From a virus, in the IMG/VR virus record IMGVR_UViG_3300037141_000319, positions 1 through 42,186 of that record: a stretch of 42,186 nt of DNA. One strand, given 5' to 3'. The notes under the pieces are model-generated. The model was not told where the DNA came from and did no database searches. It worked only from the letters and a program-made list of their open reading frames with translations. Each line of letters starts with the position of its first letter. Within the stretch, counting starts at the first letter, position 1. This document shows, piece after piece, positions 1,739-42,186 of this stretch. A program made the position numbers and the translations under genes.

Positions 1739-1806
1739 ACATGCAAGATAGCATTATACAAGCTTCTCAACGGTCAACACGCAACACAAAAGGAGCCTCC
1801 GCAGTC

Positions 1807-3033
1807 ATGGCTAAAAGCAGTATTCAAGAATTAAACGTAAAAGAGTTAATCCAGGTTCTAAAACATATCCGGGGCGGCGAAATCGGCTTCGATCCGTATC
1901 GAAATCCGTTGACCAATACGAAAGACAAGCTTTTGAGATTTATTCTCAGTGAAGCGCCGAACGAACATATTATCAGCGCGATCAAAGCGGTGACGGCCGA
2001 GAACGCCGATAGCGCCGTGCCCGCTCTGCCCGATGCGTTTGAAGACGCTAGGTCTAAGCCTATCCAAGCGCCCGCTTGGCCCGCCACGGGCACGCCAGAC
2101 GCGTCTGATACCAACGACGCCGCCCAATTGGCCGCTCTACTCGCCAAACTGGCCGGCAAAGGTACTTTGGACGAAAAGCGGGTACTCGATATCTGTATCG
2201 GGCACGGTGAGATGCTCCAAAGCATCTTTAAGAAAGATATTCACGCCGCGCTTGAGAGTTTCAGGGCGCCGACGGTTGTCCACTATATACCCGCCGAAAA
2301 CGCCGCGCCGAAAGACATGGGAATTCAGCATAAGCATTTCCCGACGCTGCTTAAAAAAGCGCAAGCGCGCCACGACGGCCACAAGCTGAATATCTGGATG
2401 AAAGGCCCGGCGGGAAGCGGCAAGACTACGGCCGCTAAGCATGTCGCCAAGGCACTTGATCAAGACTTTCAGTTTAACGGCGCGATTTCGACGGAATATG
2501 AACTCATGGGTTTTAGAGACGCCGGCGGGACGTATCATACTACCGCATTCCGCGAGATTTTTGAGCATGGCGGCGTTTACTTATTCGACGAAGTTGACAG
2601 TAGCTTGCCCAAGGCAGTCTTGGCTTTTAACGCCGCACTGGCCAATGGCGAATGCCGGTTCCCGGATCGCATGGTGACGCGACACAAAGACTGTTTGATT
2701 CTGGCCGGCGCGAATACGGCGGGTAACGGCGCGACGAGCGACTTTGTCGGACGCATGAAGCAAGACTTGGCGTTTTTAAATCGGTTCATATTGCAAGATT
2801 GGCCGCTGGATGAAACTTTAGAGAAAGCGCTTTCGAGTAACGCCCAATGGGTAGCGCGCGTGCAAGCGATGCGCAAAAAAATCGCCGACCGGGGGATTAA
2901 AGGACATATTATTTCCCCGCGCGCTACTTTCTACGGCCAAGCTTTACTCGCGGCAGGTATTGACGTGGAAGAAGTCGAACAAAGCGTGCTTCGCGGCGCG
3001 CTTACGGATGACGTATGGGCGTCGATATGCTAA
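1807..3033 (+). CDS. MoxR/CbbQ-type AAA+ ATPase
   Basis: A 408-residue ATPase of the MoxR-like (AAA_5) type, which in bacteria acts with a VWA-domain partner to remodel or activate other proteins. Walker A GPAGSGKT lies at about 200-207, Walker B LFDEVD with D261/E262, and sensor 1 at LILAGANTAGN. The N-terminal 60 residues (ELNVKELIQVLKHI) look like a small helical SAP-like or adaptor domain, followed by a Pro/Ala-rich linker. I chose ATG at 1807, which follows AAAGGAG, over ATG 1741, which has no ribosome site. It lies two genes from the VWA-like protein at 3190-4005, so the pair probably works together. The client is unknown. Confidence 0.85.
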   Translation: MAKSSIQELNVKELIQVLKHIRGGEIGFDPYRNPLTNTKDKLLRFILSEAPNEHIISAIKAVTAENADSAVPALPDAFEDARSKPIQAPAWPATGTPDASDTNDAAQLAALLAKLAGKGTLDEKRVLDICIGHGEMLQSIFKKDIHAALESFRAPTVVHYIPAENAAPKDMGIQHKHFPTLLKKAQARHDGHKLNIWMKGPAGSGKTTAAKHVAKALDQDFQFNGAISTEYELMGFRDAGGTYHTTAFREIFEHGGVYLFDEVDSSLPKAVLAFNAALANGECRFPDRMVTRHKDCLILAGANTAGNGATSDFVGRMKQDLAFLNRFILQDWPLDETLEKALSSNAQWVARVQAMRKKIADRGIKGHIISPRATFYGQALLAAGIDVEEVEQSVLRGALTDDVWASIC

Positions 3034-28899: not shown

Positions 28900-29321
28900 C
28901 TGTTCACCCTCCCGTAAAGGTAGGCGTCGGTTCCGTCGCTCTCCCAGGCGCGCAAAGTCCCCTCGCGTTGAAGACCCAGGGACTCGGCCCAGCGCTGGCC
29001 TACCGGATAATCGGCGCGCACTTCCCACTGGATGCGGCGGGGCTTTTCGTTGATCTCGTACCAGCGGATCACGTCCAGGCACTTCTTTTGGAATTCCACC
29101 GGGTATTTGCGAACCTGCTTGGACAGGAAAGACCAGAAATGCACGACGCCGGGGACGAATGGAAATCCCCCGATGATCGCTACGACCGTTTCGCCGATCA
29201 TGAAAGTGAACGCCATCGTCATGACGGTCTTCGGGCACTCGCCGCGTGGGAAGTTTTCTTTCAGGTCGATCAGATCTAAGTGTTCGGGCTTGAACGGCAC
29301 GACTTGAATTTTATTGCTCAT
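28887..29321 (-). CDS. GNAT-like internal virion protein (gp13-like)
   Basis: 144 residues. Acetyltransferase-like fold pattern: MAFTFMIGETVVAIIGGFPF, then VHFWSFLSKQVRKYPVEFQKK and RIQWEVRADYPVGQRWAESLGLQREGTL. T7 gp13 is a small virion protein of this fold. Whether it still binds acetyl-CoA is not visible. It overlaps the HNH gene at 29318. Confidence 0.75.
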   Translation of the reverse strand: MSNKIQVVPFKPEHLDLIDLKENFPRGECPKTVMTMAFTFMIGETVVAIIGGFPFVPGVVHFWSFLSKQVRKYPVEFQKKCLDVIRWYEINEKPRRIQWEVRADYPVGQRWAESLGLQREGTLRAWESDGTDAYLYGRVNRCLG

Positions 29322-29821
29322 ACTTTGTTCAGCCTCGCGAACTCCCCGAAGTACTTGGACGCAGCCAAATTATAGGCAAGCGCGGCTTCTCGAATAGTCG
29401 CGAATGCCCCTAAATAAACGAGCTTGGTCCCGATCTTAATACGAGCCTGCCACTCTTTCCGCTTCTTCCACGACGTGCGCCTTTTCCAGCTGCTTAAACT
29501 TTGCCGGATAGGGGCTACCCCCTTGGGAAGACGCCGACCGCGCTGGAGTCCCTTGTTCCTTGCATTACCAGAATGATCACAAGCGCGCAGATTCGCGCGC
29601 CTATTATCCAGGCTGTCCCCATTCACATGGTCGACTATTTTTGACGTCGTGAGAAGGATCTCCCTGGACATCGAGATCGTTTTCCTAGGCTCTCCCCGAG
29701 CATAGGTGGAGTTTCTCAAAGCGTAGCCACGTTTAAAATACCAACTAAACTTAGAGAGATTCTCGAAGTCTCGGTCGTCAACAAGAGTGAATTTTCCCTG
29801 GGTCAATTTTATTCTTTTCAT
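29318..29821 (-). CDS. HNH endonuclease with AP2-like domain
   Basis: 167 residues starting MKRIKLTQGKF (ATG 29821; ATG 29839 also possible, neither has a strong ribosome site). IVDHVNGDSLDNRRANLRACDHSGNARN is the HNH core, and EWQARIKIGTKLVYLGAFATIREAALAYNLAASKYFGEFA is an AP2-type DNA-binding domain. It sits between tail tube B and the gp13-like gene, typical of a homing endonuclease inserted in a structural operon. It belongs to a different HNH subfamily from the two others here. Confidence 0.9.
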   Translation of the reverse strand: MKRIKLTQGKFTLVDDRDFENLSKFSWYFKRGYALRNSTYARGEPRKTISMSREILLTTSKIVDHVNGDSLDNRRANLRACDHSGNARNKGLQRGRRLPKGVAPIRQSLSSWKRRTSWKKRKEWQARIKIGTKLVYLGAFATIREAALAYNLAASKYFGEFARLNKV

Positions 29822-29864
29822 TACCACAGCAGGTAACATGAGAATAGATTGGAGGGAAGTGTGA

Positions 29865-33317: not shown

Positions 33318-33818
33318 TCAGCCGCCGGTCTTGGTGTATTCGACTTCGAAATACAGGGACTTCCCGGTCGCGCCCGAGCTGCCCACGGTGCAGACGGCCT
33401 GCGCCTGAACCTGGGAAGAGAGCGGTATCTGGGTGTAGTACGTGCCCTGCTGGGCGTTGCCGTACGCCGAGGTGTAGGTGACGGCCGACCCGACGACCAC
33501 CGCCGAGAAGAACGCCGAGGCGCTCGCGGCCTGCGGGGTGAGGGACCCCGTAGGACCCGCCGCTCCGGCCAGGTAGCCGAAGTTCAGCGCGCAAGCGCCG
33601 CCCAGGCTGACCGGGGCGGCGATTTTCGCGTTGAGAAGAACCGCGCCTTCCGGGATCGGGCCGCCGACATTGATCGTGTCGTTGGCGACCAGGTCGGCCG
33701 TGAGGACGAACAGGTCCAAGATCCGGAGAGTCAGCGAGTTATACTGTCCTTCTTCGATCTGCTCGATCGGGGAGGCCTGGGTATTGGCGTAGTTAACGCC
33801 ATTGTAAGCAGTGCTCAT
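33318..33818 (-). CDS. Capsid-associated protein (decoration candidate)
   Basis: 166 residues, rich in Ala, Gly, Ser, Thr and Val, with beta-strand pattern throughout, no Lys-rich region and no signal peptide. It is placed 22 bases after the capsid gene and before a strong terminator, the place used by head decoration proteins. Its sequence echoes the exported 182-residue protein (41692-181) only in general style. I do not recognise the family. Confidence 0.7.
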   Translation of the reverse strand: MSTAYNGVNYANTQASPIEQIEEGQYNSLTLRILDLFVLTADLVANDTINVGGPIPEGAVLLNAKIAAPVSLGGACALNFGYLAGAAGPTGSLTPQAASASAFFSAVVVGSAVTYTSAYGNAQQGTYYTQIPLSSQVQAQAVCTVGSSGATGKSLYFEVEYTKTGG

Positions 33819-38057: not shown

Positions 38058-38578
38058 TTGCCGCCCCCTAGTTTCTGGGGCGGGTTAGCGCCCATGATGC
38101 CAAGACCGGCTGTCGGGCCGCTGTTTCCGGCATTCGCGAGCGATCCGAGCAAGGCGTTGCGCTGGCTCATGGCCGCGCCGTTCGTGATCGTATTGTCCCC
38201 TTCGCCGCCTTCGTTGGCGTTCGCGAGGTTGGAGTAATTCTGCCAGTTGGCCTGCGTTCCGGCGATCTCCGTCTGCCAGGCGGTGAATGCGTTGTAAGCG
38301 TCGGTCACGTCGGTCTGTCCCGTGGTGTAGTTTCCGCTTCCGCCGAACGGGCCTTTGGGCACCGGCGCCGACTGTCCCCCGGCGTACCAACGCCCGGGGG
38401 TGGAATTACCCGCCGACGGCACGACCTGGGTCCACGCCGGGTTCCAGGAACTCGCGTACTGCGCCCCGGCGGCGGAATTCAGAAATTGTTTCATCTGGGC
38501 CGGGTCGTACGTGGAAGAAGCCGTTCCGGTGACGGAAGTATTGTTCTGGGGTGTGCCCGAGCTGCTTCCTCCCATCAT
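38054..38578 (-). CDS. Hypothetical head/packaging region protein
   Basis: 174 residues from ATG 38578 (ATGA overlap with the terminase stop), preferred to the upstream ORF start at 38719 that lies in terminase. The sequence is Gly, Ser, Asn, Thr, Gln-rich and low in charge, with aromatic residues YDPAQMKQFLNSAAG and SWNPAWTQ. It ends LGGGK and overlaps the portal start. Such genes lie between terminase and portal in several podovirus groups. The role is unknown. Confidence 0.7.
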   Translation of the reverse strand: MMGGSSSGTPQNNTSVTGTASSTYDPAQMKQFLNSAAGAQYASSWNPAWTQVVPSAGNSTPGRWYAGGQSAPVPKGPFGGSGNYTTGQTDVTDAYNAFTAWQTEIAGTQANWQNYSNLANANEGGEGDNTITNGAAMSQRNALLGSLANAGNSGPTAGLGIMGANPPQKLGGGK

Positions 38579-39912
38579 CTGCCTCCGAAAATGTTGTAAG
38601 CCGTTTCGGCCTTGACCGCGTAACCGCCGGGGTTGGAGCGGTTGAAGTCGCTGTCGCGCGAATCCCCCCGCTGGCCTTGCCCGAAAGTCTGGAACGCGTC
38701 GGCGCCGTTGGAAGCCCAATTATGCAGGGGGCTCTCCTGAAAAACATTGTTTTTCGAGTCCCAGCGCCTTTGATAGTTCCCCAGGCACTCGAGCCCGCGT
38801 TTGCACTTCTCGCGGTCGAAGCTCGTCACGGGCAGCACCATCCGGGCGGCGTTGATGCCTTCGCGTTTGGTTCCGACGCGGGGGACGACGCGCGAAGGGC
38901 GGGCGCCGTGCTGGTTGAAAATAGCCTGCTGGGATTTTCCCGTGGACATGTCCCGCGCCACGACGTCGTGGGGGAAGTGAAAAGTTCCATACGAATACGG
39001 TTTGCGTTTAAGATCAGCCATAAGATCCGGGATCGCGAGGCCGGACTGTTCGTAGTAATCGATCGCGACATGCTGCCCCCGCCGGGATTGGATGAACCAC
39101 ACGGCCGTCATGTCGTTGATCCCGAGATCCCAGTAGGTGTCGACCGCCGTCATCGGGTCGTACGGGAATTTCCCGATCCGGCCTTCGCTCTCCGCCTTGG
39201 CCAACTCTTTCGCCCAGTACGCGCCGACCAGGCCGGCGTTGAAGCTGCACTCGTATTCCTGCTCGTACTCTTCTTCGGACATCGTGCGCCGGGCGGAATC
39301 GAGTTCCGACTTTTCGATCAGGCCGGTTTCGGAGGCTTTGTAAGTGATGCCGAACCACTCGGGGTCGCCGGACTGGGTCGCGTACTCGTAAAGTTTATGG
39401 AAATTATTTCGCCCCTTCGGAGTGCCGATAAAAATAGCCGAACCACGGCGATCGTTGAGCGTGGGCCGCACGGCTTCCGACCAGATCGCCGGGTCCATTT
39501 CGGCGTACTCATCCAAGAGAACGTCATCTAAGTAAATCCCTTTCACGCTGGTGTAGTTCTCGGCCGAGAGCAACATTTGCCGGCCTTTGTTATGGGCGTA
39601 GTCGATGCGCAAGTCCTGCTCGTGGGTTTCCACGCCGGGGATATTTTTCGTGTAGAGCTTATAATAATCCCATGAAATACGTTTGGCTTGGCCGAACGTC
39701 GGCGCGATGTACGCCGCGCGCGGAGCGGGAAGCGTGTTGCGTATCAGCTTATCGGTCTGATGATTTATCGCGAAAACCGTTTTTCCGAATCACCTTCGCC
39801 GGTGGCATACGATCACGTTGAAGCGTCTGAGCTTCGAACGCAGTTCGTGTTGCAACCGGCGAGGGATGAAACCTGTAGTCACGCCGTCAGGCGCTGATCC
39901 GATGATTTCCAT
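38575..39912 (-). CDS. Large terminase subunit TerL, interrupted by in-frame TGA
   Basis: The full frame runs from ATG 39912 (good ribosome site AGGGGG) to 38575, 446 codons, with TGA as codon 41. Before it: FIPRRLQHELRSKLRRFNVIVCHRR. After it: FGKTVFAINHQTDKLI and PAPRAAYIAPTFGQAKRISWDYY. The expected Walker A is CHRRFGKT, so AGG TGA are two extra codons inside the P-loop. Downstream are Walker B YLDDVLLDEYAEM, FIGTPKGRNNF and the nuclease start DTYWDLGINDMTAVWFIQ. A gene finder would start at GTG 39633 (352 residues). It should package DNA with the small subunit at 40945-41637. As read, the ATPase is broken. Confidence 0.85.
39787..39801 (-). other. Lesion in TerL Walker A (AGG TGA inserted)
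   Basis: Reading leftward, CGG CGA AGG TGA TTC gives R-R-R-stop-F where R-R-F is expected. The six bases AGGTGA resemble the CGGCGA before them (four of six), so an imperfect duplication is possible. The frame before and after is unchanged. Other TGA codons here end genes in close overlap with the next start, so TGA is not a sense codon in general. Confidence 0.8.
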
Positions 39913-40330
39913 CCGTTCCCCCTTTCTTTTTAGCCAAGTAGCGAGCGCTTCGCTTGGCGGGGTCGTAGTTCCTTCTCAGACACTCGCGCTCGCAGATGCG
40001 GCACTGACGGGCGCCGTCCGATCTGATGCGGGTGTTTTCTTCCGAGAAGGGGTGGCCGAACTTACAGTCGGGGCGATTCTTTTTTACGTGGCGGCCTTTA
40101 CGCATTTTATCGTCGGCATTATCCTGGTGCGTACCCAGGAACAAGTGCGAGATCTCCCAGCAGGACGGAGTGTCGCATCGATGCAGGACACACATACCGG
40201 CGGGTATATCGCCGTGCTCCAGCGTCCAGGTGAGCCGTGACACGATCCAAAGTTTACCGGCGATTCGTTTCTGCCCGTAGCCTTTTCTGTTCTTGGCGCC
40301 TTGCCAAATTTTGCACGAATTCACTTCCAT
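39887..40330 (-). CDS. HNH homing endonuclease before TerL
   Basis: 147 residues. SRLTWTLEHG...VLHRCDTPSCWEISHLFLGTHQDNADDKMRKGRH is the HNH_3 core and CKFGHPF...CRICE the C-terminal ribbon, as in 11668-12162. It overlaps the unknown gene before it (40321) by 10 bases and the TerL start by 26 bases. Such genes lie beside the gene they cut, here most likely terminase. Confidence 0.9.
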   Translation of the reverse strand: MEVNSCKIWQGAKNRKGYGQKRIAGKLWIVSRLTWTLEHGDIPAGMCVLHRCDTPSCWEISHLFLGTHQDNADDKMRKGRHVKKNRPDCKFGHPFSEENTRIRSDGARQCRICERECLRRNYDPAKRSARYLAKKKGGTDGNHRISA

Positions 40331-41691: not shown

Positions 41692-42186
41692 TTACTGATG
41701 GACGACGTAGTTGATATAAAGCGTCACTTTGCCGGCGGTCAGCGCGCCCACGCCGATCGTCGCCGTGATGTCGCACTTGGCGGTCACGACGGACCAGTTG
41801 GCTACCGCCCCCGTCTGGGTTCCGGCGACGGATACCCCCGCGGCTCCGAAGCTCGCGGCGGCCAACTGGGGCAGGATGTTGCCGGGGTTCTGGCAACCGA
41901 AGCCCAGCGTACCGGAAGCGGCGGTCGTCGGCTTCGTGATCGAGTAGATCCCCGCATACGTGATAATCGCGTTCGCCGGCAGGCTCACGCCCAGGTCGTA
42001 GGAGAGCGTGCTCAGGCCGCCTACTTTCGCGAAGTCGTAAGTCGCCTGCGCCATCTGCCGCGTGTAGTGGCCGTCGGCCGAACCCGCGGGGTAGGAATTA
42101 TACTTGTAATGGTTTCCCTGCTCGATGGCGTTGAAGCGCCGGTCGACTTCCGGGATGAACGGCGCGCCTTCGATGTCGGCGCGGGC
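41692..42186 (-). CDS. Sec-signal late protein, C-terminal part (continues at 181-1)
   Basis: The C-terminal part of the 182-residue signal-peptide protein that starts at 181. In the window the frame runs in from the right edge and stops at 41692. The start at 42054 (ATG) seen within the window is not needed once the circle is closed. The sequence is beta-rich, e.g. LSTLSYDLGVSLPANAIITYAG and TLYINYVVH, and resembles in style phage capsid-decoration or surface-adhesion proteins. No family recognised. Confidence 0.85.
   Translation of the reverse strand, partial: ARADIEGAPFIPEVDRRFNAIEQGNHYKYNSYPAGSADGHYTRQMAQATYDFAKVGGLSTLSYDLGVSLPANAIITYAGIYSITKPTTAASGTLGFGCQNPGNILPQLAAASFGAAGVSVAGTQTGAVANWSVVTAKCDITATIGVGALTAGKVTLYINYVVHQ
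42060..42186. repeat. Terminal direct repeat, right copy
   Basis: Identical to bases 1-127. See the left copy. Confidence 0.95.

Follow-up and report, generated by a model that had tools for sequence, protein, structure and literature searches.

A six-base insertion with an in-frame stop in the Walker A motif of a phage terminase gene, probably a null allele or a consensus error

The window, that is, the whole 42,186-nucleotide stretch of IMG/VR virus record IMGVR_UViG_3300037141_000319 analysed here, carries a large terminase subunit gene (terL) that is interrupted in its Walker A motif by a six-base insertion containing an in-frame UGA. This lesion is present in the record and is unique among the sequences seen, and the rest of the gene and of the genome is intact. 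The most satisfactory account, which we regard as very probable, is a single, recent, null insertion with a stop in the only terL, whether real or introduced in the consensus, and the evidence favours an ordinary inactivating insertion or an error in the consensus over a decoding trick. The insertion would thus have abolished terL function, and probably did so recently.

The interrupted terL frame

The terL frame extends over positions 38578–39912 of the minus strand with one interruption, and was identified by PHROG profiles, which assign its product to the terminase large subunit, by alignment, and by a match to a solved TerL ATPase. The TerL family profile matches the structure 4zni (E 1e-22), and the interrupted stretch aligns with the Walker A motif of solved TerLs. 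A TerL search of the window genome returned this single copy, with one internal TGA. From its ATG (39912–39910, minus strand) the frame translates as MEIIGSAPDGVTTGFIPRRLQHELRSKLRRFNVIVCHRRR, meets the stop TGA at 39792–39790 and then continues as FGKTVFAINHQTDK, reading RFNVIVCHRRR-UGA-FGKTVFAINHQ around the lesion. The UGA (39790–39792, minus strand) is codon 41, preceded by 40 codons and followed by 404 open codons to the end of the gene; the initial annotation had described a TGA at this position inside the P-loop with the frame open on either side, and both coordinates and description hold.

Within CHRR-FGKT, the Walker A motif is longer by exactly two codons, AGG UGA, which separate the second Arg from the Phe. 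Relative to all homologues the insertion can be written as AGGTGA at 39790–39795 of the minus strand, with a placement that is ambiguous by up to two bases; because GA flanks the hexamer, insertion of GAAGGT, AAGGTG or AGGTGA gives an identical sequence. The six extra bases that had been noted as AGGTGA are therefore present, but not necessarily in that exact placement, since the other two hexamers fit equally.

As in HTVC010P-like and podovirus-type large terminases (PHROG 2 and 2472; solved representatives 4zni and T4 gp17), homology is found on both sides of the lesion and across the ATPase and nuclease domains, with the Walker A, Walker B and nuclease regions all alignable. The window protein differs from these terminases in that an uninterrupted Walker A of family length is absent, two codons being extra and one of them UGA. 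Judged from its sequence, the gene is best filed as a broken copy and not as a working family member. As written, terL would yield a 40-residue peptide, and the insertion itself would have no function; the next usable in-frame start, a GTG at 39633, lies past the P-loop, and therefore no packaging ATPase would be made.

Relatives of the gene and integrity of the genome

The window TerL was aligned with 31 viral relatives (32 rows; 41–81% identical), all 31 of which have HRR[FW]GK[TS] at the lesion site, with neither insertion nor stop; H37, R38, R39, G43 and K44 are invariant among them. The homologues in bacterial genomes (21 of 21) read HRR[FA]GKT, again without insertion or stop. Across 2.9 million viral contigs the uninterrupted P-loop pattern was matched at least 120 times, and the P-loop with any two inserted codons (CHRR-xx-FGKT) not once. 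The expectation of the initial annotation, that family members would lack the stop and be two residues shorter at this place, is thus borne out by the 31 viral and 21 bacterial-genome homologues, and the contig scan agrees; the alignment of homologues that it had proposed as a check showed extra P-loop residues in none of them. IMG/VR yielded no near-identical contig, whether carrying the insert or lacking it. The terL flanks are 81% identical to those of the relative L002 and are conserved right up to the lesion, which therefore appears to be young.

In the scan of genome contigs, the window protein alone as query gave no match and the TerL family profile gave matches. The genome contigs that contain TerL relatives (L178–L199) carry assignments to Rhodospirillaceae, Desulfovibrionaceae and other groups, and the wider family may therefore include prophages, though no tyrosine integrase or resolvase was found in the window genome. 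Among 40 further TerLs, four related sequences were flagged with internal stops that proved to be normal C-terminal stops; one sequence, L062 (IMGVR_UViG_3300028595_000107), apparently comes from an amber-using genome. Its minus-strand TerL contains three in-frame TAG codons, and TAG readthrough lengthens other frames of the contig too, suggesting amber reassignment; no tRNA genes were found on this fragment.

Where genes of the window have counterparts in relatives G001 and G002, they are single open frames over their matched length; the portal, tail, primase, helicase and polymerase genes are among them. An ATPase-like gene (1741–3033, plus strand) matches a PHROG annotated 'porphyrin biosynthesis' (E 1e-46) and is an apparent auxiliary or takeover gene, and a second free-standing HNH endonuclease gene, beside the one discussed below, lies in the structural region (29318–29839, minus strand).

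The first 127 bases of the contig (1–127, plus strand) are an exact copy of its last 127 (42060–42186), an overlap of one k-mer, as left when a de Bruijn graph closes into a circle. The assembler metaSPAdes leaves an end overlap equal to its largest k-mer, maxK (PMC10914622). The overlap bears this signature, and the window is therefore read as a closed 42,059-bp circle assembled from short reads. The gene cut by the contig end runs on across the circle junction. Assemblers of this kind carry contigs from smaller k forward; for this reason the closing overlap argues for a decent assembly without proving local read support at the lesion.

A true null allele or a consensus error

If the insertion is null, the sequenced DNA would come either from packaging-defective genome copies, which were complemented or captured by chance, or from intact copies whose consensus is wrong here, and these two possibilities are about equally likely. 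The initial annotation had listed a true mutation and an assembly variant among the possible causes, and both are still live. Several features run counter to a null insertion of either kind: the contig closes with an exact 127-bp overlap, a sign of a good short-read assembly at k=127; no integrase or resolvase was found; a productive virulent phage should not carry a null terL as its consensus; and the insert comprises exactly two codons, so that the frame is kept.

Both possibilities draw on an imperfect inverted repeat, or RNA hairpin, at 39789–39869 of the minus strand whose 3' arm ends at the insertion. Over 39792–39868 (77 nt) it folds at -37.3 kcal/mol (z -5.6). In this G+C-rich window, however, 7–10% of positions are no more than 4 nt away from the base of an equally strong hairpin, and the coincidence of hairpin and lesion is therefore weak support; stronger hairpins elsewhere (e.g., near 33521 and 35881) sit in intact genes. 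The hairpin is not conserved in relatives, and a conserved RNA signal at the lesion was rejected on this ground. Tentatively, polymerase template switching or slippage at the hairpin base, in the cell or during library amplification, may have left a small filler insertion; alternatively, and just as tentatively, the assembler may have added such a filler when closing a gap at a coverage dip.

A consensus error, to which we assign somewhat less than half of the total probability, would mean that reads were sparse at the hairpin, that six wrong bases entered with a chimeric read, a foldback read or the closing of a gap, and that the real terL is intact. This would be consistent with the intactness of all other core genes compared, with the implausibility of a lethal allele as the consensus of a virulent phage, and with the position of the hairpin at the lesion. 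Six-base insertions are, however, rare in Illumina data, the exact overlap at closure indicates a clean graph at k=127, and the frequency of comparable hairpin bases, together with the stronger hairpins in intact genes, weakens the argument from structure.

A true null mutation, which likewise falls a little short of even probability, would place the insertion in a packaging-defective variant, sustained in trans by siblings with an intact gene, or in the DNA of unproductive infections. TerL is able to act in trans, and the clean circular assembly would be consistent with a real allele. Imperfect inverted repeats, or quasipalindromes, are a known class of mutation hotspot that acts via template switching (PMC7202029), and the window resembles such cases in that a few extra bases adjoin the base of an imperfect inverted repeat. 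It differs from them in that the insert, AGGTGA, though similar to the GGGATGA expected from copying of the opposite arm, does not match it exactly; the edit distance is 2, and 76 of the 4096 possible hexamers (1.9%) would fit as well. Strong selection against a null terL would also be expected, and no prophage lifestyle genes were found in the window genome. A tandem duplication of CGGCGA was considered as another origin and set aside: the insert matches it at four of six positions, and the tolerated two-codon intermediate occurs in none of the 2.9 million viral contigs scanned.

Recoding and the neighbouring HNH gene

Recoding of the terL stop, the route by which a functional terminase might still be made, has a probability of only a few in a hundred. 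The initial annotation had raised an unknown recoding device, and this part of its list is without positive support: UGA usage is standard, the genome has no tRNA gene, the site is absent in relatives, and there are no matched take-off and landing codons.

The first such reading is a natural in-frame stop hop, which we consider highly improbable. The peptidyl-tRNA-Arg would leave CGA, skip AGG, re-pair at UGA and resume at UUC, producing CHRR-FGKT and a terminase of wild-type length. Hopping six nucleotides in this way, from CGA to UGA, would yield precisely the family consensus, matching all homologues exactly, and this speaks against the null-insertion reading; it is nevertheless weak evidence, because any in-frame six-base insertion would fit alike. 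A stop hop is defined by its product, a single residue from nine nucleotides (PMC5009743), and strong RNA structure adjoins the lesion. In the bypassing of T4 gene 60, take-off is from a GGA codon that precedes a stop, the gap measures 50 nt, and a nascent-peptide signal takes part (PMC11194080, PMC5009743). The window terL is like this system and like synthetic stop hops (PMC11194080, PMC5009743) in that skipping six nucleotides would give back the sequence of the family, and differs in lacking matched codons, a known downstream structure and conservation. In known hops matched codons flank the stop, whereas here the ribosome would land on the stop itself, and take-off and landing codons are unmatched, the first base of CGA differing from that of UGA. 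Furthermore, the hairpin lies upstream, with its 3' arm inside the ribosome during decoding, and the site occurs in no relative, whether among the 31 viral homologues, the 21 in bacterial genomes or the contig scan. According to a review by Atkins and colleagues, in-frame stop hops are not known to occur naturally (PMC5009743).

Readthrough or local reassignment of the UGA would give CHRRR-X-FGKT, with two extra P-loop residues. The open frame on either side of the UGA would be consistent with this, but we find it hardly credible: UGA is the commonest stop in the window genome, ending 18 of the 30 main genes, no other compared gene needs readthrough, no homologue compared has two extra P-loop residues, and in E. 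coli a UGA followed by U is not a leaky stop. Genome-wide reassignment of UGA was rejected on the same usage and on the open frames of the other compared genes. A suppressor tRNA was rejected as well, since no tRNA gene was found in the window genome itself. Stop-codon reassignment in crAss-like phages (PMC7886860) likewise involves in-frame stops in late genes, whereas the window terL has one stop only, in a genome with UGA as a normal terminator and no suppressor tRNA; the three TAGs of the L062 TerL show the reassignment pattern, unlike the single UGA here.

Two further devices were dismissed. An intron, intein or structured RNA in terL is at odds with an insert of only 6 nt, and no Rfam family matched the window. 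Reinitiation directly after the stop was considered for AAGGTGATT, which is Shine-Dalgarno-like, but neither the GTG nor the ATT close by is in the terL frame. The stretch GCGAAGGTGATTC at the lesion (39787–39799, minus strand) resembles an extended Shine-Dalgarno sequence (AGGTGAT), with no suitably spaced start in the terL frame.

An intact, free-standing HNH endonuclease gene (HNH_3; 147 aa) lies next to terL at 39887–40330 of the minus strand, about 95 bp from the lesion. The overlap with the terL start seen in the initial annotation is confirmed: the HNH frame ends at 39887 and the terL ATG is at 39912, a 26-nt overlap. Its product is a member of a large phage HNH endonuclease family. The nearest relatives lack it at the corresponding place, where L002 has a different small ORF and L003 has no gene, and it therefore looks like a free-standing insertion specific to this lineage. 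Homing enzymes of the free-standing type do not insert into the gene that they cleave but elsewhere, often nearby (PMC12724721), and a lineage-specific insertion adjoining terL would be consistent with a lesion that is, as the initial annotation had suggested, a repair scar of, or a protective change against, this endonuclease. Such a link is nonetheless most improbable, as no HNH relative was found beside terL in the other loci compared and inactivation of terL would be a poor and costly protection.

Should reads show the insertion to be fixed in a phage that is productive, this terL would be a candidate first case of a natural in-frame stop hop, none being known according to the review cited above (PMC5009743). 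In the likely case that it is a consensus error or a stray null allele, its lesson is one of caution: a single stop in an essential gene of a metagenomic phage should be backed by reads before it is called as recoding.
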